Origin: Sagittula sp. P11
GTDB lineage: Bacteria; Pseudomonadota; Alphaproteobacteria; Rhodobacterales; Rhodobacteraceae
Assembly (NCBI RefSeq): GCF_002814095.1
Contig: NZ_CP021913.1
Span: 868,001 to 932,000 of the forward strand
Direction of reading: 5' to 3'
DNA length: 64,000 nt
The notes under the pieces were generated by a model. That model searched no databases, had not been told where the DNA came from, and saw nothing but the letters and a program-made list of their open reading frames with translations. Below are positions 23,580 through 45,757 of the stretch, piece by piece (within the stretch, counting starts at the first letter, position 1; each line of letters starts with the position of its first letter). The position numbers and the translations under genes were made by a program.

Positions 23580-25022
23580 CTATTCCTCGACGAAACGGAT
23601 GTCGCCGACCAGCGGCTCCGCGTCTTCGACGGGCGTCCCAGCCGGTGCGAAGGTGACCTGCGGCGCGGGCAATCCGTCCGTGGCTTCGGCCGTCAGGACC
23701 GCCATGTGATCCGTCACGTCGAAGGCAAAGACGGCATCGCTCTTTTCCGCCTCCTCCACCGAAGCGGTGGCGTTGAAGAAGTGGATCTGACCCACAAGCC
23801 ACTCTTCCCGCTGCTCCCGGGCCACCTCCGGTCCGCCGAGGTACACGTCGTAGACGACGCCCGGCTGGATCTCTGTCGCGAGCGATCCGATGACAAGGTA
23901 CAGCCGCGTGTCGGACGGCCCTCCGAGCGCGAGACTCTGCTCTGGCGCGGCGACGCGGGCGGTGACGGGTTCCGCCCCCAGCTTGACGGGCCCGGTGTCG
24001 ACACTTGCGGTCAGGGGCACGTCTTCCGCCGCGGCCAGGACCATCGGGGCGCTTTCGATCAGCGTGTCGCGTTCCACCATGGCAGTCAGAGGCGCAGGCG
24101 CCGGGATCAGGTCCTGGTAGGTGTAGCCCAGCTCCTCCGTCGTCGTTACGCTGCCTGACGGCACCGAGACCAGTTGGTTTTCCACCGGATCGTAGAACTG
24201 GAATTCCTGGTCGGTCCACGCGGCATCCGTCGGGTTCGCGTTGCCCGCCGCGTTCCAGCTTGCCCAGCAGCGGTCGATCTGTGCGTGGTGCACCCAGAAC
24301 ACCGGGTCATTGGCGGCAGTCGGCACGTTGCCCATGTTGGTGGTCGTGCCGACCATGACATGCACCGCGCCGTGCGGGTTGTTGTCCAGCGTCCGGTTGA
24401 ACCCGATCTGCCCGAGGTAGGCCGTGCGCGACATGAAGGCCAGCGACAAACCGTTCATCACGGCGGTTCCGTCGTTGATGCCCGGATTGCGGTCGGCGAC
24501 AAACAGCGGCGACGCGGGATCGCGGAACTCTTCGGGAATGGCGAGGCTCGCCGGGTCGGTGTAGTTCCAGTAGGGCAGCGTGAAGTCGTCCTCGCCGGAC
24601 ACCTGCCGCACGATCTTTTCGAGGTAGAGGACGTACATCCTGTGCCACGGGACGAAGAAATCGGCCTGGCTCGCCCAGGTGATGTGACCACGGCAGGTGT
24701 TCCACATCGCCTCAGCCGCCATCTTCTCGGGCGAGGCATCCGGTCCGTAGATGCGGTCGATCGCTGCTGCCTTCTGCTCATCCATCCAGTGGGTGAAGAA
24801 CTGGAATTGCCATGAGGTCGGGTCGGACGGGTCCCGCGTTTTCATCTGGCCCACGGCGCTTGCGTAGATACCAAGCATCTCCTTGCCCTCGGGCGAGGCC
24901 GCATCGTAGCGCGTCCGCATGTATTCGGCGCGCGCTCCGTGCATCCATGTGGCGAGGGGAACGGTTGTTGCGAAAAGCCCTGCGGATCCGAGCGACAAGG
25001 CCCGTCTGCGTGTCATCGTCAT
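23580..25022 (-). CDS. Tat-exported tyrosinase/polyphenol oxidase
   Basis: Type-3 dicopper oxidase of phenols or catechols. The 480-residue precursor starts with a Tat-like signal (TRRRALSLG, then a hydrophobic stretch and an A-R-A cleavage region). Copper-site histidines are visible in RGHITWASQADFFVPWHR (CuA) and in PHGAVH plus DPVFWVHHAQIDRCW (CuB). A beta-rich C-terminal region with a FAFDV stretch recalls the lid domain of plant polyphenol oxidases that covers the active site. The ATG at 25022 has AGGGAGG about 7 bases upstream. The substrate may be a catechol, tyrosine or a non-melanin phenol. Confidence 0.9.
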   Translation of the reverse strand: MTMTRRRALSLGSAGLFATTVPLATWMHGARAEYMRTRYDAASPEGKEMLGIYASAVGQMKTRDPSDPTSWQFQFFTHWMDEQKAAAIDRIYGPDASPEKMAAEAMWNTCRGHITWASQADFFVPWHRMYVLYLEKIVRQVSGEDDFTLPYWNYTDPASLAIPEEFRDPASPLFVADRNPGINDGTAVMNGLSLAFMSRTAYLGQIGFNRTLDNNPHGAVHVMVGTTTNMGNVPTAANDPVFWVHHAQIDRCWASWNAAGNANPTDAAWTDQEFQFYDPVENQLVSVPSGSVTTTEELGYTYQDLIPAPAPLTAMVERDTLIESAPMVLAAAEDVPLTASVDTGPVKLGAEPVTARVAAPEQSLALGGPSDTRLYLVIGSLATEIQPGVVYDVYLGGPEVAREQREEWLVGQIHFFNATASVEEAEKSDAVFAFDVTDHMAVLTAEATDGLPAPQVTFAPAGTPVEDAEPLVGDIRFVEE

Positions 25023-25157
25023 TGTAAATGCCTCCCTGAAAATAGGTGAGGCGATCATGCCACGACTCGCGGAAAAACTCAACGCAAGGGTGTATTCACC
25101 CTTTACGCCACGCGCAAAGGTTAACCCCGCGCGTGACGCCTGGCCGAATGTGTCATG

Positions 25158-25968: not shown

Positions 25969-26748
25969 TCAGACCGCGCGTTCCAGCATCATCTTCTTGA
26001 TCTCGGCGATGGCCTTCGCCGGGTTCAGACCTTTCGGGCAGGTCTTGGTGCAGTTCATGATGGTGTGGCAGCGGTACAGCTTGAAGGGGTCCTCAAGCTG
26101 GTCCAGACGCTCGCCCGTGGCCTCATCGCGGGAGTCGATAATCCAGCGATAGGCATGCAGCAGCGCTGCGGGGCCGAGGTACTTGTCGCCGTTCCACCAG
26201 TAGGACGGGCATGCCGTGGAGCAAGACGCGCACATCACGCACTCATAGAGGCCGTCGAGTTTCTTGCGGTCCTCGATGGACTGCCTCCACTCCTTCGCCG
26301 GGCGGTTGGTCTTCGTCTCCAGCCACGGCATGATCGATGCGTGCTGCGCGTAGAAGTGCGTCAGGTCGGGGATCAGGTCCTTTACCACCGGCATGTGCGG
26401 CAGCGGGTAGATCTTCACCTCGCCGTCGATCTCGTCGAGACCGTAGATGCAGGCCAGCGTGTTGATTCCGTCGATGTTCATCGCGCAGGACCCGCAGATG
26501 CCTTCGCGACAGGAGCGGCGGAAGGTCAGCGTCGGATCGACCTCGTTCTTGATCTTGATGAGTGCGTCCAGAACCATCGGGCCGCATTCGTCCATGTTCA
26601 GGAAGTAGGTGTCGACGCGCGGGTTCTCCCCGTCGTCGGGGTTCCAGCGGTAGATCTTGAACGCCCGGACGTTGGTCGCCCCTTCCGGCTTCGGCCAGGT
26701 CTTGCCGGTGCGGATCTTGGAGTTCTTGGGGAGCGTGAATTGAACCAT
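25969..26748 (-). CDS. sdhB: Succinate dehydrogenase iron-sulfur subunit
   Basis: Carries electrons from the SdhA flavin to ubiquinone through three Fe-S clusters. The 259-residue protein has the [2Fe-2S] segment [16 protein letters not shown], and the [4Fe-4S] and [3Fe-4S] motifs [12 protein letters not shown] and [20 protein letters not shown] lies directly before the ATG. It is last in the operon, separated from sdhA by two small genes. Confidence 0.97.
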
Positions 26749-26758
26749 CTCTCTCTCC

Positions 26759-27076
26759 TTATCGAAGCAGGGCTGGCAGGCCTTTGGTCGCCAGGCAGGT
26801 TACGGTCTCGGGTTTCGAGACGATCTGGGTGACGATCTGGACCGAGCTTTCGGTCGGGCCGCCGACGGTATCGGCCGCCAGCGCGTAGATCTGCGCTGCC
26901 TCGGCATTGTCGATCACGCAATCGATGGCGGGCTGCACGGGCACCCCGGGGAAGCGGTTGACGACCACACGGGAGACGGTCGAACGCGCGGCTTCACGTG
27001 CCACGGCGTCCTGCGCCTGCGGCGTGCACGCACCAAGCGCCACGGCCAGAGACAGCCCTGCGGCGGCCTTGAACAT
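26759..27076 (-). CDS. Small lipoprotein between sdhA and sdhB
   Basis: 105 residues with an N-terminal signal ending in a lipobox-like segment (VALGAC), predicting lipid attachment at Cys near residue 16. The mature part has two further Cys (D-C-V and T-C-L) that could form a disulfide. ATG 27076 overlaps the previous stop (TGATG), and the stop is 10 bp before sdhB. I know no function; the context suggests periplasmic support of the SDH complex or only shared expression. Confidence 0.75.
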
Positions 27077-27381
27077 CAGTTGAGACAATAGAGCGTTCCC
27101 CGGTACATTTTCGGTGCGCCCGGCGGGCAGGTTGCGGTGATCCGCGCCCGGTTGCGGTGCGGCGACGGGATGTAGCCCGCATATCCGCCGCTGTACCGCG
27201 CAAGGCACGAATCGTAGGCGGCCTGGTATTCAGCGGCATATCCGCTCTTGGCCCCGGAGAACCCCACGCCGTTTGCGTATGCCTGGCAATCCTGAACTGC
27301 GGTGCCCTGACCGTATCCGTTGGCCAGAGCGGGCGCCGCGAGGGCCGTGAAAGCCGCGGTGTAGATTGCCAGGTGTCGCAT
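27076..27381 (-). CDS. Small exported protein between sdhA and sdhB
   Basis: 101 residues with a Sec signal peptide ([20 protein letters not shown]) and a Gly/Tyr-rich mature part containing four Cys, including D-C-Q, S-C-L, T-C-P and a C-terminal Y-C-L-N. It is basic and has no named domain. Its ATG overlaps the sdhA stop in TGATG, and its stop overlaps the next start the same way, so expression is locked to sdhA. Confidence 0.75.
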   Translation of the reverse strand: MRHLAIYTAAFTALAAPALANGYGQGTAVQDCQAYANGVGFSGAKSGYAAEYQAAYDSCLARYSGGYAGYIPSPHRNRARITATCPPGAPKMYRGTLYCLN

Positions 27382-29183
27382 CAGAATGTCCTCGCCTTTG
27401 GTGCGATTTTCTTGAGGCTGATGCCACCTTCGTCCTCGGCGGTCAGCGGATCAACAATCACAGGACGGTAGGACAGATCGACGGCGTTTCCAGAAACGCG
27501 CGCCACGGTGTGCACGCGCCAGTTTTCGTCGTCACGCTCGGCGAAGTCCTCATGCGCATGGGCGCCGCGCGATTCCTTGCGGGCCTCCGCACCGACGATG
27601 GTCGCCAATGCGTTGGGCATGAGGTTGGTCAGCTCCAGCGTCTCCATCAGGTCGGAGTTCCAGATCAGCGACGTGTCGGTCACCCGCAGGTCGTCGATCT
27701 TGCCGGCGATGGCGGTCATCTTCTCGACGCCTTCCTCGAGCGTCTTGGAGGTGCGGAACACCGCGGCGTCGGCTTGCATGGTCTTCTGCATTTCCAGACG
27801 CAGCTCGGCGGTCGACGTGCCGCCCTGCGCGTAACGCAGGCCATCGAAGCGGTCGAACGCCTTGTCGATCTGTGCCTTCGGCGCCGTGGGGATTGCCGAG
27901 TCGCGATCAACCACCTTGCCGGCACGGATCGCCGCCGCACGTCCGAAGACCACGAGGTCGATCAGCGAGTTGGAGCCGAGACGGTTGGCGCCGTGCACCG
28001 AGGCGCAGCCCGCCTCGCCCACGGCCATCAGGCCCGGAACCACGGCGGTCGGGTTCTCTTCGGTCGGGTTCAGCACTTCGCCCCAGTAGTTGGTCGGAAT
28101 GCCGCCCATGTTGTAGTGCACCGTCGGCAGAACCGGGATCGGCTCTTTCGTGACGTCGACACCGGCAAAGATCTTCGCGGACTCGGAGATGCCCGGCAGA
28201 CGTTCGGCCAGCGCCTCTGCGGGCAGGTGGCTGAGGTTGAGGTGGATGTGGTCGCCGTCCTTGCCGACGCCCCGGCCCTCGCGGATCTCCATGGTCATGG
28301 AGCGGGACACGTAATCGCGCGGCGCGAGGTCCTTGTAGGTCGGTGCATAGCGCTCCATGAAGCGCTCGCCCTCGGAGTTGGTCAGGTAACCGCCCTCGCC
28401 GCGCGCACCCTCGGTGATCAGGCAGCCGGAGCCGTAGATGCCGGTGGGGTGGAACTGCACGAACTCCATGTCCTGCAGCGGCAGGCCCGCACGGGCCACC
28501 ATGCCGCCGCCGTCACCGGTGCAGGTGTGGGCGGAGGTGGCGGAGAAGTAGGCCCGGCCATAGCCGCCGGTGGCGAGCACGACCATCTTCGCGTTGAAGA
28601 CGTGGAAGGTGCCGTCGTCCAGTTTCCAGGTCAGGACACCGGTGCAGACGCCGTCCTCCATCAGGAGGTCGATGGCGAAGTACTCGACGTAGAATTCCGC
28701 GTTGTTCTTGACCGACTGGCCATAGAGCGTGTGCAGAATCGCGTGGCCGGTCCGGTCGGCGGCGGCGCAGGTGCGCTGCACCGGCGGGCCTTCACCGAAC
28801 TCGGTGGTGTGGCCGCCGAAGGGACGCTGGTAGATCTTGCCCTCTTCGGTGCGCGAGAACGGGACGCCGTAGTGCTCAAGCTCGTAGACCGCCTTCGGCG
28901 CCTCGCGGGCGAGGTATTCCATGGCGTCGGTGTCCCCCAGCCAGTCGGAACCCTTCACCGTGTCGTACATGTGCCACTGCCAGTTGTCGGGGCCCATGTT
29001 GGACAGCGACGCGGCAATGCCGCCTTGTGCGGCGACGGTGTGAGAGCGGGTCGGGAAGACCTTGGTCACGCAGGCGGTTTTGAGCCCCTGCTCTGCCATG
29101 CCCAGCGTGGCGCGCAGCCCGGCGCCGCCGGCCCCCACGACAACGACGTCATAATCGTGCGTCTCGTATTCGTATGCAGCCAT
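27381..29183 (-). CDS. sdhA: Succinate dehydrogenase flavoprotein subunit
   Basis: Oxidises succinate to fumarate on the cytoplasmic face. The 600-residue protein has the N-terminal dinucleotide motif [11 protein letters not shown], the covalent-FAD His in SHTVAAQGG, and active-site residues in the [15 protein letters not shown] and [11 protein letters not shown] regions. The C-terminus contains the expected D-E-N-W-R-V-H-T segment. It has normal family length. It lies 67 bp after sdhD and overlaps the following small gene. Confidence 0.98.
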
Positions 29184-29250: not shown

Positions 29251-29622
29251 TTAGAGCGCCAGTTTGACCAGCGCGAACAGCCCCGCCGCGATCAGCACGT
29301 AGGAGAATGCCGTCACCGCAACCGCCAGCAGCTTGCCGGTGGTGCCGTGCACATAGTCCTCGATCGCTTCCTGCACTTCGCCGTTGAAGTGGATCACGCC
29401 GACCACCAGCATGAGGGCGGTGATGATCGCGGGGAACGGACGGGAGAAGAACGCCAGAACGTCCTCGAAGCTGCCGCCGAAACCGACGCCGAAGCTGAAG
29501 ACGAAGAGCGGCACCAGCACGACCAGCGCCATGGAAGTCACCAGCATGCGCTTGTGGAACTGCGTCCCGGTGCGGCCAGAACCGAGACCCTGAGCGCGTT
29601 TGCGATCCGTGAGATATTGCAT
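29251..29622 (-). CDS. sdhD: Succinate dehydrogenase membrane anchor subunit
   Basis: Integral membrane subunit that, with SdhC, anchors the complex, binds heme b and forms the quinone site. It has 123 residues and three transmembrane helices. The conserved H in GVIHF (heme ligand position) and the E-D-Y-V-H-G segment fit SdhD. It is 12 bp after sdhC. Confidence 0.93.
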   Translation of the reverse strand: MQYLTDRKRAQGLGSGRTGTQFHKRMLVTSMALVVLVPLFVFSFGVGFGGSFEDVLAFFSRPFPAIITALMLVVGVIHFNGEVQEAIEDYVHGTTGKLLAVAVTAFSYVLIAAGLFALVKLAL

Positions 29623-29634
29623 GACCGTTCCTCC

Positions 29635-30024
29635 TCAGACCACGATTGCGGTAAAGATCGCCATGACGCTGGCACCGATGAACATGATCCAGCCCATCAT
29701 TTCGGAGGGCTCCAGCTCGACCATGTAGCCCAGGTCCCAGATCACGTGACGGAGGCGGCCGAGCATGTGATACCAGATGGCCCAGCTTGCCAGCAGCATG
29801 AGGATGTCACCGATGAAGCTGGTCAGGATGCCGTTCACCACGGCGTAGGCATCCGGAGAGGTGGCGGCGCAGAGCAGCCAGAGAACCAGCAGAGCTGCAG
29901 TACCGAGCGAGGCGATGCCGGTGATGCGCACCATGATCGACGAGATGGATGTCATCTGCGGGCGGTAGTACTGCCCGATCATGAAGGGCGATAGCGGGCG
30001 GTTGCCCCGGTTCACGTCGGCCAT
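29635..30024 (-). CDS. sdhC: Succinate dehydrogenase cytochrome b556 subunit
   Basis: 129 residues and three transmembrane helices. The N-terminal RPLSPFMIGQYYRPQMTSI and R-I-T-G match the family opening, and HMLGRLRHVIWDLG contains the conserved H and R-H of the heme/quinone region. The ATG at 30024 was chosen because AAGGA lies 8 bases upstream; an ATG two codons earlier is too close to it. It is the first gene of sdhC-D-A-x-y-B. Confidence 0.93.
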   Translation of the reverse strand: MADVNRGNRPLSPFMIGQYYRPQMTSISSIMVRITGIASLGTAALLVLWLLCAATSPDAYAVVNGILTSFIGDILMLLASWAIWYHMLGRLRHVIWDLGYMVELEPSEMMGWIMFIGASVMAIFTAIVV

Positions 30025-30144
30025 GGTCATGTCCTTGCGTTGAATTCCGTTGCCCCCCGTTTTAGTGGGTTTTGCTGCGCTGTCACGTGGGCTGCACTCT
30101 GCAAACCGCGGTTTTTTGGCACAAATAGGCGGATTTTTCAGTTT

Positions 30145-30175
30145 TGTGATCACGGCCCGCAAGGGTGTGATCACA
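30145..30175 (-). promoter_or_regulatory. Paired TGTGATCAC(A) operator upstream of sdhC
   Basis: Two palindromes, TGTGATCACG (30145-30154) and TGTGATCACA (30166-30175), with centres 21 bp apart, lie about 120-150 bp upstream of sdhC. The same two-site arrangement with the same spacing is found before sucC. They are separate 10-bp palindromes, not a CRP half-site pair. The rest of the 359-bp gap (30025-30383) contains no supported gene. Confidence 0.7.
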
Positions 30176-30383
30176 GTTTGGGCGGTAACGGCGCCGCGGT
30201 GCGGCGCCGGCGATACACATGTCGCGATCATGAGAGATTCGGTCGGGAAAGGGCGCCGGGGCGTTCTGCCGCTTCCCCGATCTTCGATGAGGCACGGTGA
30301 CTTACCAGCGCTTTTTCAGGTGATCCGGCCGGCGTGGCCCTGCGCCCTCGCGGCGAACAGAGCCGGCCCACGATACGACGGCC

Positions 30384-31412
30384 TCAGACCGGCATCAACG
30401 CCCAGTAATCCAGATCGAGCAGAACGTCGGGAAGGTATTTCCCGTCGGGCCCCTTGAGCTCGAACGGATTGCCGCCCTTGGTCGCCACCAGCCTCAGACG
30501 GATCGCTCCGACGCCCGGGGCCGAGGTTTCGGCCTTGTCCAGCACTTCGGACCACGCCTTGACCGTGTTCCCGGCAAGGCAGGGATTGGCATGTGCGCCG
30601 CCGTTCAGTCCGACGATCATCTGCGCATTGGCGAGCCCGTTGAACGATAGCGCCCGCGCCATGGAGATCACGTGGCCACCGTAGATCAGGCGCTGGTCCG
30701 GGCGGGCCGTCACGTCGAAGTGCACCTTGGACGTGTTCTGCCACAGCCGTGTCGCCATCATGTGCTCGGCTTCCTCGATCGTCACGCCGTCGACGTGGTC
30801 GATCTTCTCACCGATCTCGTAATCGCCAAGCCGGTGCGGTTCGCCCGCCAGGGTGTAATCGTATTTCGTGAAATCAAGGCCTTCCAGGATCACAAGGTCC
30901 GCGGGATCCAGCACGGATTTCAGATCCGGAAGAACCGCCTCAGGTGCGGGCGCATCGAGGTCGCGCTTCCGCAGCATGACCCAGCGCTTGTACTCCATCA
31001 CGCATTCGTCGCGCTGGTTGAAGCCTTTGGAATGCACATACACCACCCCGGTCCGGCCATTGGAGTTCTGCTTCAGACCGATCACTTCCGACGAGGCGCG
31101 GAGCGTGTCGCCCGGCCAGACCGGCTTCAGCCACCGCCCTTCCGCATAGCCGAGGTTCGCGACGGCATTCAGCGAGACATCCGGCACCGTCTTGCCGAAG
31201 ACGATGTGGAACGCCGCAAGATCATCGAGCGGACCACCGGCCAGACCACAGGCTTTCGCAAACTCGTCGGAGGAATAGAGCGCGTGCCGCATGGGGTAGA
31301 GCGCATGATAAAGCGCCCGCTCACCGCCCGATACGGTCCGCGGCACGGCGTGGTCGATGACTTGCCCGACCTCGTAATCCTCGAAAAAGCGCCCGGGGTT
31401 GGTCTTCTGCAT
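30384..31412 (-). CDS. mch: Mesaconyl-CoA hydratase (2-methylfumaryl-CoA hydratase)
   Basis: Hydrates mesaconyl-C1-CoA to beta-methylmalyl-CoA in the ethylmalonyl-CoA pathway. The 342-residue protein consists of two MaoC-like hotdog halves. The first opens with FFEDYEVGQVIDH and the second with DYEIGEKIDHVDGVTIEEAEHM, and the HVISMARALSFNG helix follows. The tandem hotdog length and these openings are typical for Mch of Rhodobacter. Its start overlaps the stop of the DUF1737 gene (TGATG). It is last in an operon begun by mcl2. Confidence 0.93.
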   Translation of the reverse strand: MQKTNPGRFFEDYEVGQVIDHAVPRTVSGGERALYHALYPMRHALYSSDEFAKACGLAGGPLDDLAAFHIVFGKTVPDVSLNAVANLGYAEGRWLKPVWPGDTLRASSEVIGLKQNSNGRTGVVYVHSKGFNQRDECVMEYKRWVMLRKRDLDAPAPEAVLPDLKSVLDPADLVILEGLDFTKYDYTLAGEPHRLGDYEIGEKIDHVDGVTIEEAEHMMATRLWQNTSKVHFDVTARPDQRLIYGGHVISMARALSFNGLANAQMIVGLNGGAHANPCLAGNTVKAWSEVLDKAETSAPGVGAIRLRLVATKGGNPFELKGPDGKYLPDVLLDLDYWALMPV

Positions 31413-31615
31413 CAGTACTCCCCCAGCTTGATGTCGGGGGTGTAGGTGCCATGCACCTCCTTCACGACCGCCTGGCCACAGCGCATGACGCCATTGGCCG
31501 CGTCGAAGGCATAGGTCGGAGTGCCGTACAGTTCCCAGCCGGCATTCAGCGCGGCCGTGACCTTGTGACAGAAGGCCGAGGTGTCGTCCTCGGACAAGAA
31601 GCGATAGAGTTTCAT
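31412..31615 (-). CDS. DUF1737 small protein
   Basis: 67 residues starting MKLYRFLSEDDTSAFCHKV and containing G-W-E-L-Y-G, a signature of the DUF1737 family; function unknown. It lies between nnrU-like and mch genes with overlaps or gaps of at most 4 bp, so it belongs to the malyl/mesaconyl-CoA operon. One Cys pair is present and there is no membrane segment. Confidence 0.82.
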   Translation of the reverse strand: MKLYRFLSEDDTSAFCHKVTAALNAGWELYGTPTYAFDAANGVMRCGQAVVKEVHGTYTPDIKLGEY

Positions 31616-31619
31616 GAGT

Positions 31620-32165
31620 TTACCCGAATGCAGGTGGGCCGATCAGCCCGTGGACATAACCGATCACCACGAGCAGCACGAGAGAGATCGCCAGGAACAT
31701 GGCGTCCTTCGCGATGCTGCCTTTGGCCGGGGCGACCCAGCCGGGCTCGGCACGGTTGATGACGATCATCTCGACGATGGCCCAGAGGCCCAGACCGCCG
31801 AACAGCACGAAGGACGGCACGTCGCCGTTCACCAGAAGGTGCGCCAGCGTCCAGAGCAGGAACCCCGTGAGCATCGGATGGCGCATCTTGTAGAGCAGCG
31901 CGCCTTTCTTCGGCCCCGGCGAAGTCAGGTAGAGCGCGAAAAGCATGATGAGGTTGTTGATCCCGACCGTCGCCGGGTGACGCCCCCAGAAGAACGCGCC
32001 ATCTGCCATACGGTAGCCGAAGATCATCAGCAGGATGGACACGACCAGCGCCAGCGCGACGACGCCCTTGCCCTTGTCGCCCATGGGTTCGCGCACACCC
32101 GGTGCGATGCGTTTGAAGAGGTGCGCAGCCCACCACAGCGCGACACCTAGAATCAGTATAAGCAT
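31620..32165 (-). CDS. NnrU-family integral membrane protein
   Basis: 181 residues with about five transmembrane helices and the family segments AAHLFKRI, GRHPATVGINN and MRHPMLTGFLLWTLAHLL. NnrU was named for a link to nitric oxide metabolism, and the family also resembles isoprenylcysteine methyltransferases. There is no denitrification gene nearby, so that role is not supported here. It sits 38 bp after mcl2 and 4 bp before the DUF1737 gene. Confidence 0.88.
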   Translation of the reverse strand: MLILILGVALWWAAHLFKRIAPGVREPMGDKGKGVVALALVVSILLMIFGYRMADGAFFWGRHPATVGINNLIMLFALYLTSPGPKKGALLYKMRHPMLTGFLLWTLAHLLVNGDVPSFVLFGGLGLWAIVEMIVINRAEPGWVAPAKGSIAKDAMFLAISLVLLVVIGYVHGLIGPPAFG

Positions 32166-32203
32166 GGCTCAGTTCCTCATCCTGGTCGGTGCGCACCCTG
32201 CCC

Positions 32204-33052
32204 TTATCCTGCAAGCGCAGCAATGGCCTCCGCCTTTGCGAGGGTCTTCTTCGCGGTCTCGACGTGCAGGTTCTCGACGATCTTGCCGTCGACCACCGCG
32301 ACGCCCTGCCCCTGCGCCTTGGCCTCTTCGTAGGCTTCGATCTGGCGGCGGGCGAGGTCGATCTCCTTCTCGTCCGGCGCGAAGGCGGCATTGGTGATGT
32401 CGACCTGTGCGGGATGGATCAGCGTCTTGCCGTCCATGCCCATGTCACGGCCCTGCGCACATTCGGCCGCCAGTCCCTCGTCGTCCTTGAAGGCGTTGTA
32501 GACGCCGTCGACGATGACCTTTCCGAAGGCCTTCGCCGCCAGCACGCAAAGCCCCAGCCCGGTGATCATCGGCAGACGGTCGGCGCGGAAGCGCGCGTTG
32601 AGTTCCTTGGCAAGGTCGTTGGTGCCCATGACCATGCCCTGCAGCCGCGGATGAGCGCCAATGTCCCTGGCATTCAGCATGCCCATGGGCGTTTCCATCA
32701 TAGCCCAGAGGGGTTTGTCGGTAATCTCCGCGAGGCGGTCGAGTTGCGCGGTCGTCTCTACCTTGGGCAGGAGGATCGCGTCGCTGTCCATCGCGGCCGC
32801 CGCTTTAGCGTCGTCCAGACCCCACTCGGTGTCGAGCCCGTTGATGCGCACGATCCGGGTGCGCTGGCCGTAGGACGTTTTCAGCGCCTCGGCGAGCGTG
32901 GCGCGGGCGGCCGGCTTCTCTTCCGGCGCGACGGCGTCCTCGAGGTCGAAGATGATCGCGTCGACCGGCATCGAACGCGCCTTTTCGAGCGCGCGCTCCT
33001 TGGAGGCGGGAATGTAGAGGACGGACCGAAACGGTCGGGTCGCCATGTCCAT
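32204..33052 (-). CDS. mcl2: (3S)-malyl-CoA thioesterase (Mcl2 type)
   Basis: Hydrolyses (S)-malyl-CoA to malate and CoA at the end of the ethylmalonyl-CoA pathway. The 282-residue CitE-like TIM barrel has RSVLYIPASKERALEKA, the metal site FDLEDAVAP, WAMMETPMGMLNA and GMVMGTNDLAKEL. It is shorter than malyl-CoA lyase Mcl1, and its first residues resemble Rhodobacter Mcl2 as I remember it. A lyase activity cannot be ruled out from sequence alone. The ATG at 33052 has AGGAG 6 bases upstream. It heads the operon mcl2-nnrU-DUF1737-mch. Confidence 0.88.
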   Translation of the reverse strand: MDMATRPFRSVLYIPASKERALEKARSMPVDAIIFDLEDAVAPEEKPAARATLAEALKTSYGQRTRIVRINGLDTEWGLDDAKAAAAMDSDAILLPKVETTAQLDRLAEITDKPLWAMMETPMGMLNARDIGAHPRLQGMVMGTNDLAKELNARFRADRLPMITGLGLCVLAAKAFGKVIVDGVYNAFKDDEGLAAECAQGRDMGMDGKTLIHPAQVDITNAAFAPDEKEIDLARRQIEAYEEAKAQGQGVAVVDGKIVENLHVETAKKTLAKAEAIAALAG

Positions 33053-33063
33053 TTGAGTCTCCT

Positions 33064-33092
33064 TGCGCAACTTTATTGCGCAGGGATGCGCA
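33064..33092 (-). promoter_or_regulatory. Three TGCGCA repeats upstream of mcl2
   Basis: TGCGCA occurs at 33064-33069, 33077-33082 and 33087-33092, immediately before the mcl2 ribosome site, with TTGCGCAA at the gene-proximal copy. The ccr leader has a related GCGCAA/TTGCAA pair. A common short-chain acyl-CoA regulator is possible. The remaining 33093-33363 gap holds the divergent promoters and no supported gene. Confidence 0.45.
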
Positions 33093-33363
33093 TTTTTTGT
33101 CGGAAAGTTCAAGAGGAAATTCGCTGCGTCGCAGAATAGGCGGTTTCTTTGGGCGGTCCTACCAGCCATTTCGATTGCATTTGAGCCAGCGCACGCAGCG
33201 TTAACCGGATTTAAGCCGCTCGGGGCAGAGGATGTTCGCAGGTCGTTCCAATGCGACAGCGAATGATCGAGGGCGCTTCCGGACAGGGTTGGCGCCCGGG
33301 AACCGAGAGGACTCACGAAGCGTTCTCCGTGTGACGGAGCGCAAGAGCCGAAAGGTGAAGACG

Positions 33364-33678
33364 ATGATTACGATGAAACTGGGATTGCTCTCCGCCGGAT
33401 TCATTCTGGGCGCCGCGTCCCTCGTGGAGGCGCAACAGCTTCAGAACTGCGCCCCGCGCGAGAAGGTGGTGGCGCGCCTTGCTGACAAGTACGGGGAAAC
33501 CCGCCAGAGCATGGGGCTCGGCTCCAACAACGCCGTGATGGAGGTGTTCGCATCGGTCGAAAGCGGGTCGTGGACGATCACCGTCACCATGTCCAATGGC
33601 ATCACCTGCCTCGTGGCCTCAGGCCAGGCCTTCGAGGAACTGGCCGAGGTGCTCCCGCCCAAGGGAGACGATGCATGA
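33364..33678 (+). CDS. Small exported protein
   Basis: 104 residues with a Sec signal peptide (MKLGLLSAGFILGAASLVEA) and a mature part of about 80 residues with two Cys (N-C-A-P and I-T-C-L), likely disulfide-bonded. GSWTITVTMSNGITCLVASG suggests a short beta sheet. I recall similar short periplasmic proteins in roseobacters, function unknown. AAAGGTG precedes the ATG at 33364. It is divergent from mcl2 and convergent with the TauE/SafE gene. Confidence 0.75.
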   Translation: MITMKLGLLSAGFILGAASLVEAQQLQNCAPREKVVARLADKYGETRQSMGLGSNNAVMEVFASVESGSWTITVTMSNGITCLVASGQAFEELAEVLPPKGDDA

Positions 33679-33685
33679 ACTGAAC

Positions 33686-33713
33686 CGGGCACGATCCTGA
33701 ACAATCGTGCCCG
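33686..33713. terminator. Bidirectional terminator hairpin
   Basis: Perfect 10-bp stem CGGGCACGAT (33686-33695) and ATCGTGCCCG (33704-33713), 8-base loop, in the 46-bp gap between convergent genes. Confidence 0.8.
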
Positions 33714-33724
33714 TGTCGTGGACG

Positions 33725-34477
33725 TCAGGTGAGCGCGTCCCAGATCAGCTTTGCCCCCGTCAGCGTCAGCGCGACATAGGTGATCCCGAAGAACACGCGC
33801 TCTGGCAGCATATGATGGGCCCGTATGCCGAACCATGTACCGAGCACGGCAAAGGGGACGAGGATCAGGTCCAGCATCAGCGTCTCGTGCGTGAAGATGC
33901 CCATGAAGGCATAGAAGACCGACTTGAAGAGGTTCACGGCCCAGAAGACCAGCACGGTCGTGGCCTGGTATGACGTCTTCGACATCCCCTGCCCCAGCAT
34001 GTAGACCGCAGCCGCCGGGCCCCCGGCATGGCTGACAAAACTGGTGAACCCCAAAACGACGCCCGAAGCGACGCCGGTCTTTGGACCGAAACGCATGCCC
34101 AGCCGGATCAGGCCCACCGCCCGGGCCGCCTGCCAGCCGACGAACAACAGCGCCACCATGCCGATCAGGAACCGGATGGCGTCCGGGTCGGCCCAAGCCC
34201 AGAACAGCGCCCCAAGGATCGTGCCCGGGATCGAGCCCACCAGCAGGATCTTCGAAACCTCCCAGTCCCACTTCTTCCAGTAGGCCCAGAGGCTGGTGGC
34301 ATCCATCATCATCAGGAGCGGCAGCATAAGGCCCACTGCCACATGCGGCGGCAGCACCAGCGCCAGAATCGAGCTGCTCGCGAAAGCGACCCCGGAGCCG
34401 AAACCGCCCTTGGAAATGCCTGCGAAAATGACCGCGGGAAGGCAGAAAGCGATGACGGTCCAACTGACCAGTTCCAC
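33725..34477 (-). CDS. TauE/SafE-family sulfite/anion exporter-like permease
   Basis: 250-residue protein with about eight transmembrane helices. The two family repeats begin with GISKGGFGSGVAF and GFTSFVSHAGGPAAAVYML. Members export sulfite, sulfoacetate or other organic anions; substrate is unknown here, and the taurine locus is 20 kb away. GTG 34477 was chosen because AGGAG lies 6 bases upstream; no ATG is available. It is divergent from mdh. Confidence 0.87.
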   Translation of the reverse strand: MELVSWTVIAFCLPAVIFAGISKGGFGSGVAFASSSILALVLPPHVAVGLMLPLLMMMDATSLWAYWKKWDWEVSKILLVGSIPGTILGALFWAWADPDAIRFLIGMVALLFVGWQAARAVGLIRLGMRFGPKTGVASGVVLGFTSFVSHAGGPAAAVYMLGQGMSKTSYQATTVLVFWAVNLFKSVFYAFMGIFTHETLMLDLILVPFAVLGTWFGIRAHHMLPERVFFGITYVALTLTGAKLIWDALT

Positions 34478-34597
34478 GCCACACTCCTCTAAAACGCCGC
34501 GCAAACCGGGCTTTATCCCAGCCATCCCCGGTTTGATAGCCCTAACGGCGCCTCGCTGCAGCGCCGCACTCTTGCGTTGCGCCAGCAAGCGGCGTAG

Positions 34598-35599
<1,002 letters not shown>

Positions 35600-35624
35600 C
35601 AGTTCAGACGCAAGTCGTCATTCG

Positions 35625-35657
35625 ATGCCGGTCCCTGCAGGGGGGCCGGCATTTTCG
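35625..35657 (+). terminator. Rho-independent terminator after mdh
   Basis: ATGCCGG (35625-35631) pairs with CCGGCAT (35646-35652), with further CCC/GGG pairs inside, followed by TTTTC. It begins 26 bp after the stop and separates mdh from the suc operon. Confidence 0.88.
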
Positions 35658-35659
35658 TT

Positions 35660-36571
35660 TCAGGGATCGACGTTTTTCACATGCGCGTAGCCGGCTCCGG
35701 TCCATCGCCAAAGGCCGAACGGCATGTCCACACCGCGCACTTGCTGCATCCACAGGTCCGGCCAGCCTTCCGTCGTGTTCGCGGTGTCCGCCCAGATCAT
35801 CGTGCCGACCTGCTGCGCGATCTGCCAGGCCGCGCCGTCCTCGACGATGGCCAACGTGACGGCAGACCCGGACGGGCCGTAAAGCTCGGTGGACGGGCCG
35901 GTCTCGATGGCAAGGAGCGCGGTGCCCTCACTCACCGGCAAGCGTGTCACGGACAGAATGCCGTCCGGCCCGATGACCTCCAGCTGATCGGCGAGCAGGA
36001 CGGCAGCCCGCGACAGGTCCTCCGAAGACGCCTCGCCACCGAACATCGGCACGAAGCGGTCGGAAGGCTGACCCGGCACGGGACGATCCTCCTCCGCCTT
36101 GTCTTGGCCGCTGTCCCGACAGAGGCTCTCCGCCTGTGCCAGCGCCCTCGACGAGCCTTTGAGCGGCAGCGGGAAGGACGCGATCCGTCCCCTGTCCAAC
36201 CCGACGGTCGCCAGGACCCCGCGGCCGAGCGCCTCAACCAATACATCGTCACGGCTCGCAACAAACCCCGTCGAAGCGACCCCTCCGGAGATCGCCATGT
36301 CCAGGCTGTAGGTGCCACCGCCAATCGCAAGCGAAACGCCAAGGTCCCCGTCGTCCGGCATTTCGGGTAGGGTCATCGCCCATCCGAGGCCGTCCTCGTC
36401 GCACCTCAGGACCAGACAGGCCTGAGCACCGCCGATGGTCGTGCAGCCCTGCGCGCCCTGCCCCATGCCGTCCCGTTCGCCAAGCACGCTCCAGTCTGCG
36501 AGCGCCTCCGACGCGGGCAAGATGCCCAGGCCGATGGCAGCCACAACCGCATGACAAAACGACGAAGCCAT
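35660..36571 (-). CDS. Exported protein of unknown function
   Basis: 303 residues with a signal peptide (hydrophobic stretch ending in SEALA). The N-terminal half contains two Cys pairs and a repeat-like beta pattern. The C-terminal 40 residues (EGWPDLWMQQVRG and GLWRWTGAGYAHV) resemble the end domain seen in many periplasmic hypothetical proteins of this group. It lies on the opposite strand between mdh and sucC. ATG 36571 is preferred over the GTG at 36583, because GGGAG lies upstream of it. Confidence 0.72.
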   Translation of the reverse strand: MASSFCHAVVAAIGLGILPASEALADWSVLGERDGMGQGAQGCTTIGGAQACLVLRCDEDGLGWAMTLPEMPDDGDLGVSLAIGGGTYSLDMAISGGVASTGFVASRDDVLVEALGRGVLATVGLDRGRIASFPLPLKGSSRALAQAESLCRDSGQDKAEEDRPVPGQPSDRFVPMFGGEASSEDLSRAAVLLADQLEVIGPDGILSVTRLPVSEGTALLAIETGPSTELYGPSGSAVTLAIVEDGAAWQIAQQVGTMIWADTANTTEGWPDLWMQQVRGVDMPFGLWRWTGAGYAHVKNVDP

Positions 36572-36673
36572 AGCTCTGCCCACTCCCGATAAATCGCAGG
36601 CAGCCTAGGCTGCCCATGCCATCGGGACAAGATAGCGCTTGATTCCTTGACAAACGCTAACACCGCAGATGCT

Positions 36674-36704
36674 TGTGATCACACTTTTCGGGGCTGTGAT
36701 CACA
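36674..36704 (+). promoter_or_regulatory. Paired TGTGATCACA operator upstream of sucC
   Basis: Two perfect 10-bp palindromes TGTGATCACA (36674-36683 and 36695-36704), centres 21 bp apart, 114-144 bp upstream of sucC. The spacing is identical to the pair before sdhC. The 246-bp gap contains no supported gene. Confidence 0.75.
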
Positions 36705-36817
36705 GATGTCGGAAAGTAACGCCTTTTTCACGTACATTGGCATTTTTTGTTTAACCCCACCCGCAATGCGTGCCTATACCCGAAGCAAATCGCAGCAAGC
36801 ACGGGGATCACGGACCC

Positions 36818-38011
36818 ATGAATATCCACGAATATCAGGCCAAGGCACTTCTGCGCAGCTACGGTGCTCCGGTATCGGACGGCCGCATCGTCCTGAGGGC
36901 CGAAGAGGCGAAGACCGCGGCAGGTGCACTGGATGGCCCGCTCTGGGTGGTCAAGGCGCAGATCCACGCCGGCGGCCGCGGCAAGGGCTCCTTCAAGGAG
37001 GCCGACGCGGGCGAAAAGGGCGGTGTGCGCCTCGCCAAGAGCGTGGAAGAAGCGGCGGAAGAAGCCAAGAAGATGCTGGGCAAGACGCTCGTCACCCACC
37101 AGACCGGCCCCGCCGGCAAGCAGGTGAACCGCATCTACATCGAGGACGGCTCCGACATCGAGCGCGAACTCTACCTCGCCCTGCTCGTGGATCGCCAGAC
37201 CTCGCGTATCTCCTTCGTCTGCTCCACCGAGGGCGGGATGGACATCGAGGAAGTGGCCGCAAGCACCCCGGAAAAGATCCTGTCGTTCTCCGTCGATCCG
37301 GCCACCGGCTACCAGCCGTTCCACGGCCGCCGCATCGCGTTTGCGCTGGGTCTGGACAAGGCCGGTCAGAAGCATTGCGTGAAGCTGATGGGCATCCTCT
37401 ACAAGGCCTTCGTCGAGAAGGACATGGAGATGCTGGAGATCAACCCGCTGATCGTCCTGAAGGACGGCACGCTGAAAGTGCTGGACGCCAAGCTGGGCTT
37501 CGACGGCAACGCCATGTACCGCCAGCCCGAAGTGGCCGAGCTGCGTGACGAGACCGAGGAAGATTCGAAGGAACTCCAGGCCTCCAAGTACGACCTGAAC
37601 TACATCGCCCTCGACGGCGAGATCGGCTGCATGGTGAACGGCGCGGGCCTCGCCATGGCGACCATGGACATCATCAAGCTCTACGGTGCGGAGCCTGCCA
37701 ACTTCCTCGACGTGGGCGGCGGCGCGACCAAGGAGAAGGTGACCGAGGCGTTCAAGATCATCACCTCCGATCCGAACGTGAAGGGCATCCTCGTCAACAT
37801 CTTCGGCGGCATCATGCGCTGCGACATCATCGCCGAGGGCGTCATCGCCGCGGTGAAGGAAGTCGGCCTGCAGGTCCCGCTGGTCGTCCGTCTCGAAGGC
37901 ACGAACGTAGAGAAGGGCAAGGAGATCATCGCGACCTCCGGCCTGAACGTGATCGCCGCCGACGACCTGAAGGACGGCGCCGAGAAAATCGTGAAGGCCG
38001 TCAAGGGCTGA
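36818..38011 (+). CDS. sucC: Succinate-CoA ligase, ADP-forming, beta subunit
   Basis: With SucD it converts succinyl-CoA to succinate with ATP formation. The 397-residue protein has the ATP-grasp domain starting at [16 protein letters not shown], the [11 protein letters not shown] loop, E-I-N-P-L metal site near residue 207, and [10 protein letters not shown] in the C-terminal CoA-ligase domain. The ATG at 36818 is preceded by GGGGATC. It starts the operon sucC-x-sucD-x-x-sucA-sucB-six genes-lpd. Confidence 0.98.
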
Positions 38012-38722: not shown

Positions 38723-39610
38723 ATGGCCGTTCTCATCGACGAAAACACCAAAGTCATCTGCCAGGGCTTCACCGGCTCGCAGGGCACCTTCCACTCGGAA
38801 CAAGCCATCGCCTACGGCACGAAGATGGTCGGCGGCGTGACGCCCGGCAAAGGCGGTCAGACCCACCTCGACCTGCCGGTCTTCGACAGCGTGCACGAAG
38901 CGAAGGCAAAGACCGAGGCGAACGCATCGGTGATCTACGTGCCGCCGCCGTTCGCCGCGGACTCGATCCTTGAAGCGATCGACGCGGAGATGGAACTGAT
39001 CGTCTGCATCACCGAGGGCATCCCGGTGCTGGACATGATGAAGGTCAAGCGCGCACTGGAGAACTCCAAGTCGAAGCTGATCGGCCCGAACTGCCCGGGC
39101 GTCATCACCCCCGACGCCTGCAAGATCGGCATCATGCCGGGCCATATCCACAAGCGCGGCAAGGTGGGCGTCGTGTCCCGCTCGGGCACGCTGACCTACG
39201 AGGCCGTGAAGCAGACCACCGACGTGGGCCTCGGCCAGTCGACCTGCGTCGGCATCGGCGGCGACCCGATCAAGGGCACGGAGCACATCGACGTGCTGGA
39301 GTGGTTCCTGGCGGACGACGAGACCGAGGCGATCATCATGATCGGTGAGATCGGCGGCTCTGCCGAAGAGGACGCGGCCGCGTTCCTCGCCTCCGAAAAG
39401 AAGAAGGGCCGCTGGAAGCCGACCGCCGGTTTCATCGCGGGCCGCACCGCTCCTCCGGGACGCCGCATGGGTCACGCCGGCGCTATCGTCGCCGGCGGCA
39501 AGGGCGGTGCCGACGACAAGATCGAAGCGATGAAGTCCGCGGGCATCATCGTCGCAGACAGCCCCGCCACTCTGGGCGAGGCCGTGCTCGAGGCGATCAA
39601 GAACGGCTGA
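38723..39610 (+). CDS. sucD: Succinate-CoA ligase, ADP-forming, alpha subunit
   Basis: 295 residues. The CoA-binding domain starts with [22 protein letters not shown], the catalytic loop has G-P-N-C-P-G-V-I, and the phosphohistidine loop is G-H-A-G-A at about 250 ([11 protein letters not shown]). It partners with SucC, 711 bp upstream, so the usual close sucC-sucD coupling is replaced by an inserted gene and two hairpins. The ATG at 38723 is preceded by a weak GAAGAAAG. Confidence 0.97.
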
Positions 39611-41211: not shown

Positions 41212-44178
41212 ATGACCGACCAAAGCCCGAACGATCTTTTCCACGCTTCCAGCTTCATGCAGGGGCACAACGCGGAATATCTGGAGCAGATGTACGCCCG
41301 CTACGCCGCCGATCCGAGCGCGGTGGACGATGCCTGGGCGGCGTTCTTCAAACAGTTGGGTGACGACGAAACCTCGGTCCGGCGCGAAGCGGAAGGACCG
41401 TCCTGGGCGCGCGCCGACTGGCCGCCCGCCCCGGCGGACGACCTGACGGCGGCGCTGACCGGCGAATGGCCGATGCCCGCCGCTCCGGCAGAGGCGAAGG
41501 GCGCCGCAAAGAAGATCGCCGCGAAGGCAGATGAACAGGGCGTCTCCGTCTCCAACGAGGCGATCCAGCGCGCCGTTCTGGACTCGATCCGCGCGCTCAT
41601 GCTGATCCGCGCCTACCGCATCCGCGGCCACCTGGCAGCCGACCTCGACCCGCTGGGCCTGCGCGACACCTCGAACCACCCGGAGCTCGATCCGAAGTCC
41701 TACGGCTTTACCGAAAGCGACATGGACCGCCCGATCTTCATCGACAACGTGCTGGGGCTGCAGATCGCCTCCCTGCGCGAAATCGTGTCGATCGTGAAGC
41801 GCACCTACTGCGGCACCTTCGCGCTGCAGTACATGCACATTTCCGACCCGGAGCAGTCTTCCTGGCTGAAGGAGCGGATCGAGGGTTACGGCAAGGAAAT
41901 CCACTTCACCCGTGAAGGCCGCAAGGCGATCCTGAACAAGATGGTGGAGGCCGAGGGCTTCGAAAAGTTCCTGCACGTCAAGTACATGGGCACGAAGCGG
42001 TTCGGCCTCGACGGTGGTGAATCCCTGATCCCCGCGATGGAACAGATCATCAAGCGCGGCGGCAACCTCGGGCTGAAGGAAATCGTCATCGGCATGCCGC
42101 ACCGCGGCCGTCTGTCGGTACTCGCGAACGTGATGAACAAGCCTTACAAGGCGATCTTCAACGAGTTCCAGGGCGGCAGCTTCAAGCCGGAGGACGTGGA
42201 CGGTTCGGGCGACGTGAAATACCACCTCGGCGCCTCCTCCGACCGGGAGTTCGACGGCAACACCGTGCACCTGTCGCTGACCGCCAACCCTTCTCACCTC
42301 GAGGCGGTGAACCCGGTGGTTCTGGGCAAGGTCCGCGCCAAGCAGGACCAGTTCGGCGACGTGAACCGCACGCAGGTCATGCCGATCCTTCTGCACGGCG
42401 ACGCGGCCTTTGCCGGCCAGGGCGTCGTTGCCGAATGTTTCGCGCTCTCGGGTCTGCGCGGCCACCGCACCGGCGGCACGATGCACATCATCGTCAACAA
42501 CCAGATCGGCTTTACCACGGCACCGCACTTCTCGCGTTCGTCGCCGTACCCCACGGACAACGCGCTGGTGGTCGAGGCACCGATCTTCCACGTCAACGGC
42601 GATGACCCGGAGGCCGTGGTCCACGCCGCCAAGGTCGCGACCGAGTTCCGCCAGAAGTTCGGCAAGGACGTGGTCATCGACATGTTCTGCTACCGCCGGT
42701 TCGGTCACAACGAGGGCGACGAGCCCATGTTCACCAACCCGGTGATGTACAACAAGATCAAGAAGCAGAAGACCACACTGACGCTCTACACCGAGCGGCT
42801 GGTCAAGGACGGCCTGATCCCCGAGGGCGAGATCGAGGACATGAAGGCCGCCTTCCAGGCCAAGCTGAACGAGGAGTTCGAGGCCGGCAAGGTCTACAAG
42901 CCGAACAAGGCCGACTGGCTGGACGGCCGATGGTCCCACCTCGACAAGCAGAAAGAGGGCAAGTACCAACGCGGCAAGACGGCAATCAAGCAGGAGACCT
43001 TCAAGGAGATCGGCTCTGCGCTGACCACCGTTGCGGACGGCTTCCCGATCCACAAGACCGTGGGCCGACTGATCGAGGCACGGGCGCAGATGTTCGAGAC
43101 CGGCAAGGGTTTCGACTGGGCGACGGCTGAGGCACTGGCCTTCGGCTCGCTCCAGCTTGAAGGGTATCCGGTGCGCCTCTCTGGTCAGGACTCCACCCGC
43201 GGAACGTTCAGCCAGCGCCATTCCGCCTTCGTCAACCAGGAGAACGAAGAACGGTACTACCCGCTGAACAACATCCGCGAAGGACAGGCCCGGTTCGAGG
43301 TGATCGACTCCGCGCTGTCCGAATACGCGGTGCTGGGCTTCGAATACGGCTACTCGATGGCCGAACCGAACGCCCTGACGCTGTGGGAAGCGCAGTTCGG
43401 CGACTTCGCCAACGGCGCGCAGATCATGTTCGACCAGTTCATCTCGAGCGGTGAATCGAAGTGGCTGCGGATGTCGGGTCTCGTCTGCCTGATGCCGCAC
43501 GGCTTCGAAGGCCAGGGGCCGGAGCACTCCTCCGCCCGTCTGGAACGCTTCCTGCAGCTCTGCGGCCAGGACAACTGGATCGTGGCCAACTGCTCGACGC
43601 CAGCGAACTATTTCCACATCCTGCGCCGCCAGTTGCATCGGTCGTACCGCAAGCCGCTGATGCTGATGACGCCGAAGTCGCTTCTGCGCCACAGGCTCTG
43701 CGTCTCGGAGATGGAGATGTTCACCACCGGCTCGTCCTTCCACCGCGTCCTCTGGGACGATGCGGAAACCGGGCATTCTGAAACCAAGCTGGTTTCGGAC
43801 GACAAGATCAAGCGCGTCGTCATGTGTTCGGGCAAGGTCTACTATGACCTGCTGGAAGAACGCGACGCGCGCGGTCTGGACGACGTCTACCTGCTGCGGG
43901 TCGAACAGTTCTATCCGTTCCCGGCGATCAGCCTCGTCAAGGAGCTGGAACGCTTCAAGCAGGCAGAGATGATCTGGTGCCAGGAAGAGCCCAAGAACCA
44001 GGGCGCCTGGTCCTTCATCGAGCCGAACATCGAATGGGTCCTCGGCCGCATCAAGGCAGAGCATCCGCGCCCGCGCTACGTGGGCCGCGCCACCTCGGCC
44101 TCGCCCGCAACGGGCCTGGCCTCCACCCACAAGGCACAGCAAGCCGCGCTTGTCGACGAAGCGCTGACGATCGAATGA
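41212..44178 (+). CDS. sucA: 2-oxoglutarate dehydrogenase E1 component
   Basis: Thiamin-diphosphate enzyme that decarboxylates 2-oxoglutarate and passes the succinyl group to SucB lipoate. At 988 residues it is slightly longer than E. coli SucA. It has the N-terminal E2-binding helix ([16 protein letters not shown]), H-R-G-R-L in the substrate site, the ThDP motif from GDAAFAGQG to VNNQIGFTT, and the C-terminal pyrimidine domain with SQRHSAF and [24 protein letters not shown] precedes the ATG. sucB follows after 46 bp. Confidence 0.98.
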
Positions 44179-44224: not shown

Positions 44225-45757
44225 ATGACCGAAGTACGCGTCCCCACCCTTGGGGAATCGGTGACCGAGGCCACCGTGGCCACCTGGTTCAAGAAGCCGG
44301 GCGACAGCGTTGCCGTGGACGAGATGCTGTGCGAGCTGGAAACCGACAAGGTGACGGTGGAGGTGCCATCGCCCGCCGCCGGCACCCTCTCGGACATCGT
44401 GGCGAAGGAAGGCGACACCGTTGGCGTCGACGCGCTGCTTGCCAACATCGCGGAGTCCGGCAACGCCGGCCCCGAGGAGACCAAGCCGCGCGCGAAAGAG
44501 GCGGAGACCAGCAGCGGCAGCGCCTCCGGCGGCGGCGACAGCGTGGACGTGATGGTGCCGACGCTCGGCGAATCCGTGACCGAGGCGACCGTCTCCACCT
44601 GGTTCAAGAAGGTTGGCGACAGTGTCACGCAGGACGAGATGCTGTGCGAACTGGAAACCGACAAGGTGTCAGTCGAAGTACCCGCACCGGCCTCCGGCAC
44701 GCTGACGGAAATCGTCGCCCAGGAAGGCGACACGGTCGAAGCCAACGCCAAGCTGGCGGTGATCGCTTCCGGCGAGGGTGTCTCCGCCGCGCCGAAGGCA
44801 GAGGCCGAGCCGAAGGACACGCAATACTCCACCCCGCCCGCCGGCAACGGCGGTCCGGGCAAGGACATCAAGGATGGCCCGGCAGCCGAAAAGGCCATGG
44901 CCGAGGCGAACGTCTCCCGCGATCAGGTGAAGGGCACCGGCAAGGACGGCCGCGCGACGAAGGCCGATGTGGCCGCCGCCGTGGCCGCTGCGAACGCCTC
45001 CCCGGCAGCCTCCACTCCGGCCTCTGCGCCGCGCGCCCCTGTCGCGGCCGAGGACGAGGCGCGCGAGGAGCGGGTGAAGATGACCCGCCTGCGTCAGACC
45101 ATCGCCCGCCGCCTGAAGGACGCGCAGAACACCGCCGCGATCCTGACCACCTACAACGAGGTGGACATGACCGAGGTCATGGCGCTGCGGTCGGAGTACA
45201 AGGACCTGTTCGAGAAGAAGCACGGCGTCCGTCTGGGCTTCATGTCCTTCTTCACGAAGGCCTGCTGCCACGCGCTGAAGGAGGTTCCCGAGGTCAACGC
45301 CGAGATCGACGGCACCGACATCGTCTACAAGAACTTCGTGCACATGGGCATCGCGGCGGGCACGCCGCAGGGTCTGGTGGTTCCGGTCATCCGCGATGCC
45401 GACAGCATGTCGTTCGCGGAAATCGAGAAGGCGATCAACGAGAAGGGCAAGCGCGCCCGCGACGGCAAGCTGTCCATGGCAGAGATGCAGGGCGGCACGT
45501 TCACCATCTCGAACGGCGGCGTCTACGGCTCGCTCATGTCCTCGCCGATCCTGAACCCCCCGCAGTCCGGCATCCTCGGCATGCACAAGATCCAGGACCG
45601 CCCGATGGTCATCAACGGCGAGATCAAGATCCGCCCGATGATGTACCTTGCCCTGTCCTACGATCACCGCATCGTCGACGGCAAAGGCGCGGTGACCTTC
45701 CTCGTCCGCGTGAAAGAAGCGCTGGAAGACCCGCGCCGTCTGCTGATGGACCTGTGA
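44225..45757 (+). CDS. sucB: 2-oxoglutarate dehydrogenase E2 component with two lipoyl domains
   Basis: Dihydrolipoyl succinyltransferase, 510 residues (about 100 more than E. coli SucB). The difference is a duplicated lipoyl domain: residues 2-77 with lipoyl Lys42 and 107-182 with Lys147, both inside CELETDKV. A flexible Ala/Pro linker, a peripheral E3/E1-binding domain (about 220-255) and the catalytic domain with SYDHRIVDG follow. AAGGAAG precedes the ATG. Confidence 0.97.

Follow-up and report, generated by a model that had tools for sequence, protein, structure and literature searches.

The closest described counterpart of the element considered here, a tandem operator that occurs twice in a 64,000-nucleotide stretch of the Sagittula sp. 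P11 genome (NZ_CP021913.1, positions 868,001 to 932,000; the whole stretch is called the window below), is the regulon of AkgR in Rhodobacter sphaeroides. This regulator is reportedly the subject of work by Imam, Noguera and Donohue in mBio in 2015, and it is probably the protein RSP_0981. AkgR belongs to the GntR family, has sites that contain GTGATCAC and is termed an activator in the excerpted text of PMC6365646, while a prediction from 2015 places sucCD, sdh and sucAB under RSP_0981, which is a GntR regulator too (PMC4344238, likewise in excerpt). The Sagittula operators lie in a different genome, yet family, motif and operons agree: Sagittula carries GTGATCAC operators, the sdh and suc targets, and a gene for a GntR regulator tied to the operator, the features by which an AkgR regulon would be recognized. 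PS417_07240, a GntR-like protein of the Pseudomonas simiae deoxyribonate cluster, is 32% identical to AkgR and shares the GTGATCAC palindrome, but the same excerpt reports for it one palindrome ahead of its own cluster and no tricarboxylic acid (TCA) cycle operons (PMC6365646). CceR similarly controls central carbon metabolism in alphaproteobacteria but belongs to the LacI family; according to excerpts of PMC11323563, its regulon includes succinate dehydrogenase (SDH) and 2-oxoglutarate dehydrogenase in R. sphaeroides but not in Paracoccus denitrificans, so that another controller of these enzymes is possible in the latter. Text searches of the literature on TGTGATCACA, sdhC or GTGATCAC named no regulator among the matches listed, and the excerpts of PMC5343134, PMC4494728, PMC5507952 and PMC4419725 hold nothing on this operator.

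Each of the two operators consists of a pair of 10-bp (base pair) palindromes with 21 bp between centres (Table 1), just as the original prediction, made from the letters of the window, had described them. The pairs are near-identical, with palindromes of the form TGTGATCAC followed by A or G, the G ending belonging to one sdhC palindrome, and within the window GTGATCAC is present only at 30146, 30167, 36675 and 36696, which bears out the claim that it holds no further copy. The first pair is directed at sdhC (minus strand) and the second at sucC (plus strand); both indeed precede TCA-cycle operons. A search of the complete genome (5,576,178 bases, 7 contigs) for TGTGATCAC-N12-TGTGATCAC, allowing 3 mismatches, returned both window pairs at 0-1 mismatch and two other places at 3 mismatches. 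The 10-mer TGTGATCACA is not randomly scattered but occurs at exactly four places genome-wide, three of which are palindromes of the window pairs (one at sdhC, two at sucC). The fourth (C1:2750922-2750931) ends 7 bp before the ATG of a GntR/FCD gene outside the window, and this points to the regulator. Defined by the exact 10-mer, the regulon is three promoters: those of SDH, of the succinyl-CoA synthetase/2-oxoglutarate dehydrogenase segment, and of the GntR/FCD gene itself.

We put at about 0.9 the probability that both pairs are operators of this GntR/FCD regulator, AkgR, which would activate sdhC and sucC through them and repress its own gene, akgR, through the single site. The original prediction had proposed one regulator common to sdhCDAB and suc, acting through palindromes on the same DNA face, and this proposal gains support from the conservation of the pair, its retention where the two operons are separated, its co-loss with the GntR/FCD gene, and the palindrome of the regulator's own gene. 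The regulator that could not be named from the window is very probably AkgR; among the candidate families then listed (GntR, LacI or MarR), GntR is the correct one.

Across the bacterial family the pair, at up to 2 mismatches, occurs in 265 of the 295 genomes and 264 of the 294 genera sampled, so the absence from relatives that would have counted against a shared operator did not occur. A reversed control pattern matched the same 295 genomes at one forward and one reverse place, and conservation of the pair is beyond chance. Several genomes have one pair place rather than two (e.g. G007, G012, G030). When any gap of 2-32 bases was allowed, exact pairs were found in 268 of the 295 genomes; by a hand count of the matches listed from this spacing-free scan (75 places in 37 genomes), 65 have 21 bp between centres and 5 have 20 bp, the other 5 being at 13, 18, 18, 27 and 31 bp. 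When 70 pair loci, drawn from 36 genomes, were typed, 33 proved to stand before sdhC, 35 before sucC, 1 before sucA and 1 before fumC; for L007-L036, which were retrieved with the 21-bp pattern, spacing and ungapped palindrome are there by construction, as are the abutting half-sites of all 70 loci. The sdh and suc pairs lie about 90 or 190 kilobases apart in some genomes (G093, G252) and on separate draft contigs in others (G063, G199), and this retention of the pair where sdh and suc are separated indicates that the operator follows the operons and not their location. In extended form the operator is TTTGTGATCACA...TGTGATCACAAA, its outer flanks being more constrained than its inner ones. 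The letters of the half-sites resemble those of CRP, and sites of the CRP/FNR type (TGTGA-N6-TCACA or TTGAT-N4-ATCAA) were accordingly considered; but TGTGA and TCACA adjoin without a gap in the window palindromes, in place of the six-base CRP separation, and it is the ungapped pattern that is conserved in the 265 genomes, which leaves such sites with hardly any credibility and upholds the initial view of these elements as complete 10-bp palindromes unlike gapped CRP sites.

Some loci depart from the common arrangement. In G042 a third pair (L028, G042:C16:228292-228321) precedes fumC, a class II fumarase gene by eye, and the regulon there reaches the next TCA step. In G177 a pair (L032, G177:C4:93432) lies immediately before sucA beside mdh, with no sucC within the retrieved stretch. 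Triple arrays occur at L011 (sucC of G197) and L122 (sdhC of G177), where a third palindrome with one mismatch lies another 21 bp upstream, and the 2.6-megabase genome G265 has eleven close GTGATCAC pairs, the most of any genome in the spacing-free scan.

The candidate regulator (218 residues, C1:2750939-2751592) contains a GntR domain (PF00392, E 6.3e-13, residues 16-68) and an FCD domain (PF07729, E 1.1e-18, residues 86-205). Its closest solved relative by sequence is Escherichia coli McbR (PDB 4p9f, residues 18-211, E 9.6e-21), a protein with a different role that is not known to be a TCA regulator. At E<=1e-70, a cut chosen after a gap was seen between 1e-59 and 1e-74, the regulator is missing in 23 of the 27 family genomes without an exact pair vs 7 of the 268 with one (Fisher p=3e-24); at the preset cut of 1e-25 it is missing in 15 of 27 vs 3 of 268 (p=2e-15). 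A SucC match is present in 24 of the 27 pair-less genomes (two only at 50-53% identity), so that absence of the pair is mostly not a matter of missing sequence. Among 22 good sucC upstream regions from pair-less genomes, 17 lack GTGATCAC at up to 1 mismatch in 300 bp, 3 have a single lone near-miss, and in the last 2, G040 and G291, the pair is there at 21-bp spacing with one mismatch. These two are among the four genomes that keep the regulator without an exact pair; the others are G155, with two pair places at up to 2 mismatches, and G147, which is 73% complete and yielded no sucC orthologue.

In a class-wide draw, all 3 family members and 2 of the 207 genomes from outside the family hold the pair. 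The regulator has matches at E<=1e-40 in those 3 members and likewise in 2 of the 207 (37-42% identity in these two); in the sampled genomes, operator and close regulator together are nearly confined to the family. One of the two non-family genomes with a pair (G440; the other is G495) carries GTGATCAC twice at 21 bp before a different GntR/FCD gene (L176, G440:C189:992-1020; by eye), and the motif is thus not unique to AkgR. This, together with the 37 GntR-domain matches in the Sagittula genome, of which the candidate is one, and the two or three proteins at E<=1e-25 in many family genomes, would fit a different main binder, for example a second GntR/FCD paralogue, with akgR as one user of the motif. 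Such an arrangement is very improbable given that the sole TGTGATCACA copy beyond the two pairs adjoins akgR, and that presence of akgR tracks the pair, in a profile made for this candidate alone.

Recurrence of the single palindrome at akgR agrees with assignment of the operator to AkgR. Measured from the palindrome centre to the base aligned with query residue 1, GTGATCAC lies 6-46 bp upstream in 44 of 49 akgR orthologues (the 30 best matches plus 19 hand-picked, plus strand), and it occurs within 120 bp upstream in 68 of 80 named akgR loci (80 of 580 matches). A TT[GT]AC element stands exactly 13 bp before the palindrome in 57 of 62 matches, which would make the palindrome overlap the expected -10; as this is a repressor layout, we infer autorepression. 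In G187 two palindromes 13 bp apart, not one, lie just upstream of akgR (G187:C1:3357949-3357969). The gene upstream of akgR (L065:11-397) presumably encodes a DUF45/YgjP-like metallopeptidase, and in several relatives its end seems by eye to overlap the TTGAC of akgR. A TCA gene lies within 10 kilobases of akgR at 21 of the 80 named loci; in G208 akgR is near lpd, sucBA and sucDC (names by eye), but this is not so in the Sagittula genome.

The pairs at sdhC are placed differently. Of 34 sdhC loci, the window included, 25 have a -35-like GTGAC[AT] that starts 57-60 bp beyond the proximal palindrome, and four others have it at offsets of 48, 69, 78 and 79 bp. We scanned the 295 genomes for an exact 21-bp pair followed by GTGACW-N15-17-TA over the rest of the 26-91 bp range, and obtained matches in 16 genomes at 61-91 bp and 7 at 26-56 bp. 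One of these 23 (G150; L158) is a sucC locus and was dropped, leaving 22 sdhC offsets (four of them from loci of the 34-locus sample): 36 (1), 48 (6), 61 (1), 68-71 (11) and 78-79 bp (3), where the 36 bp of G018 may be a chance match and the 78 bp of L157 (+-1) was taken from match length. The best period among those tested (8-14 bp) is 10.6 bp, with R=0.82, and R at 10.5 was reached by 0 of 20,000 uniform draws. Counted from 59 bp, none of the 22 offsets deviates by more than 2 bp from a whole number of turns, as would hold for 26 of the 62 scanned positions; 21 differ by one or two turns of the helix, and the remaining one, 61 bp, is the zeroth turn. No half-turn case was found among the scanned genomes fitting the promoter pattern. 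At sucC, 7 matches to TT[AGT]AC-N16-20-TA were found in 36 loci, all at 47-48 bp, about one turn closer; T[AG]T[AG] is at 72 bp in 8 of the 36, but at 65-66 bp in 11.

It may be asked whether conserved promoter distances reflect nothing beyond common descent. The 57-60 bp shared by the 25 loci could be explained by inheritance alone, and with distinct values only the periodicity has p=0.0045. Yet on an SdhC/SdhD tree of 52 sequences (47 typed) the turn class must change at least 19 times, and every one of the 22 departures is close to a whole turn, more than the share of qualifying positions would give; the tree was built by a quick method from two short proteins, with 11 of 49 inner branches starred, a point that itself leaves some room for descent. 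We consider it distinctly unlikely that descent accounts for the pattern; the distance from pair to promoter at sdhC tends to change in whole helical turns, which is the trace expected of an activator that needs to face polymerase.

The same distances bear on the sign of regulation. Many FCD-type GntR proteins are repressors, and the geometry of the single akgR site is that of a repressor, from which it might be supposed that AkgR binds the pairs but represses sdh and suc until relieved by a metabolite. We regard this as unlikely: the sdhC pairs stand clear of the promoter, 36-79 bp ahead of its -35-like element and at whole-turn distances, an activator layout; the sucC distance is 47-48 bp in the matches found; and AkgR is termed an activator in the part of PMC6365646 cited above.

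Several results weigh against activation by AkgR as proposed here. Seven of the 268 pair-holding genomes have no strong regulator match, and G019, G114 and G256 among them are at least 90% complete; 5 of 49 and 12 of 80 akgR orthologues have no upstream palindrome; GTGAC[AT] was not found in 5 of 34 sdhC loci, and at least 29 of 36 sucC loci do not fit the -35/-10 pattern used. A consensus scanner returned no sigma-70 promoter at the sdhC or sucC site, so the promoter elements given in Table 1 rest on conservation.

We hypothesize that AkgR occupies each 10-bp palindrome as a dimer, and that two such dimers, spaced 21 bp (two helical turns) apart on the same DNA face ahead of the promoters of sdhC and sucC, may form a dimer of dimers and would bring about activation, while the single palindrome across the expected -10 of akgR would allow AkgR to repress its own synthesis. 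AkgR binding, activation through the pairs, repression through the single site and the promoter elements themselves are all predictions from sequence comparison. It seems reasonably probable, if less so than the assignment of the operators, that AkgR is dual-mode by site layout alone and that the sdhC array has been shifted by whole turns at least 19 times across the family. By arithmetic from the predicted -35, the centre of the proximal site would lie about 75-120 bp before the expected start, with arrays between two turns nearer to the sdhC promoter and two turns farther from it.

Table 1. Operator palindromes, predicted promoter elements and target genes in the window (window coordinates)
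Feature	Coordinates	Strand	Remarks
Proximal palindrome, sdhC operator	30145..30154	-	TGTGATCACG on plus strand, CGTGATCACA on minus strand; exact GTGATCAC at 30146-30153
Distal palindrome, sdhC operator	30166..30175	-	TGTGATCACA; centre 21 bp farther from sdhC
Distal palindrome, sucC operator	36674..36683	+	TGTGATCACA
Proximal palindrome, sucC operator	36695..36704	+	TGTGATCACA
Predicted sdhC -35, GTGACA	30081..30086	-	59 bp from end of proximal palindrome; putative promoter
Predicted sdhC -10, TAAAAC	30059..30064	-	16-bp spacer; putative
Predicted sucC -35, TTAACC	36751..36756	+	47 bp after proximal GTGATCAC; putative
Predicted sucC -10, TATACC	36775..36780	+	putative
sdhC	29635..30030	-	start ATG 30030 or 30024; orthologues also downstream of pair
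sdhD	29251..29622	-	named from sequence knowledge
sdhA	27381..29183	-	named from sequence knowledge
sdhB	25969..26748	-	named from sequence knowledge
sucC	36818..38011	+	start codon 36818
sucD	38723..39610	+	start chosen by reading of sequence
sucA (2-oxoglutarate dehydrogenase E1)	41212..44178	+	probably same operon as sucCD
sucB	44225..45757	+	named from sequence knowledge

Between the two operators, at 30384-33316 on the minus strand, are what we take from sequence knowledge to be mcd and mcl1 of the ethylmalonyl-CoA pathway. The stretch between sdhB and sdhA (26759-27381) holds small open reading frames of unassigned function on the strand of these genes, and a tyrosinase-like one (by eye) lies downstream of sdhB at 23580-25082.

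The regulator and its regulon are already largely known, the regulon having been predicted in 2015; the additions made here are the set of three promoters, the co-occurrence across the family and the quantisation of distance in helical turns. Promoter phasing and the contrast of tandem with single sites were not met in the literature searched, in which few searches were aimed at them and the original description of AkgR was not covered. Succinate dehydrogenase and the 2-oxoglutarate/succinyl-CoA segment would thereby have a named switch in common, and the regulon would be a minimal one of three promoters. The quantised distances between operator and promoter offer a ready natural test of whether a GntR/FCD protein activates from one face of the helix and, if the dual-mode reading is true, the family would hold a natural mutagenesis series of helical phasing.

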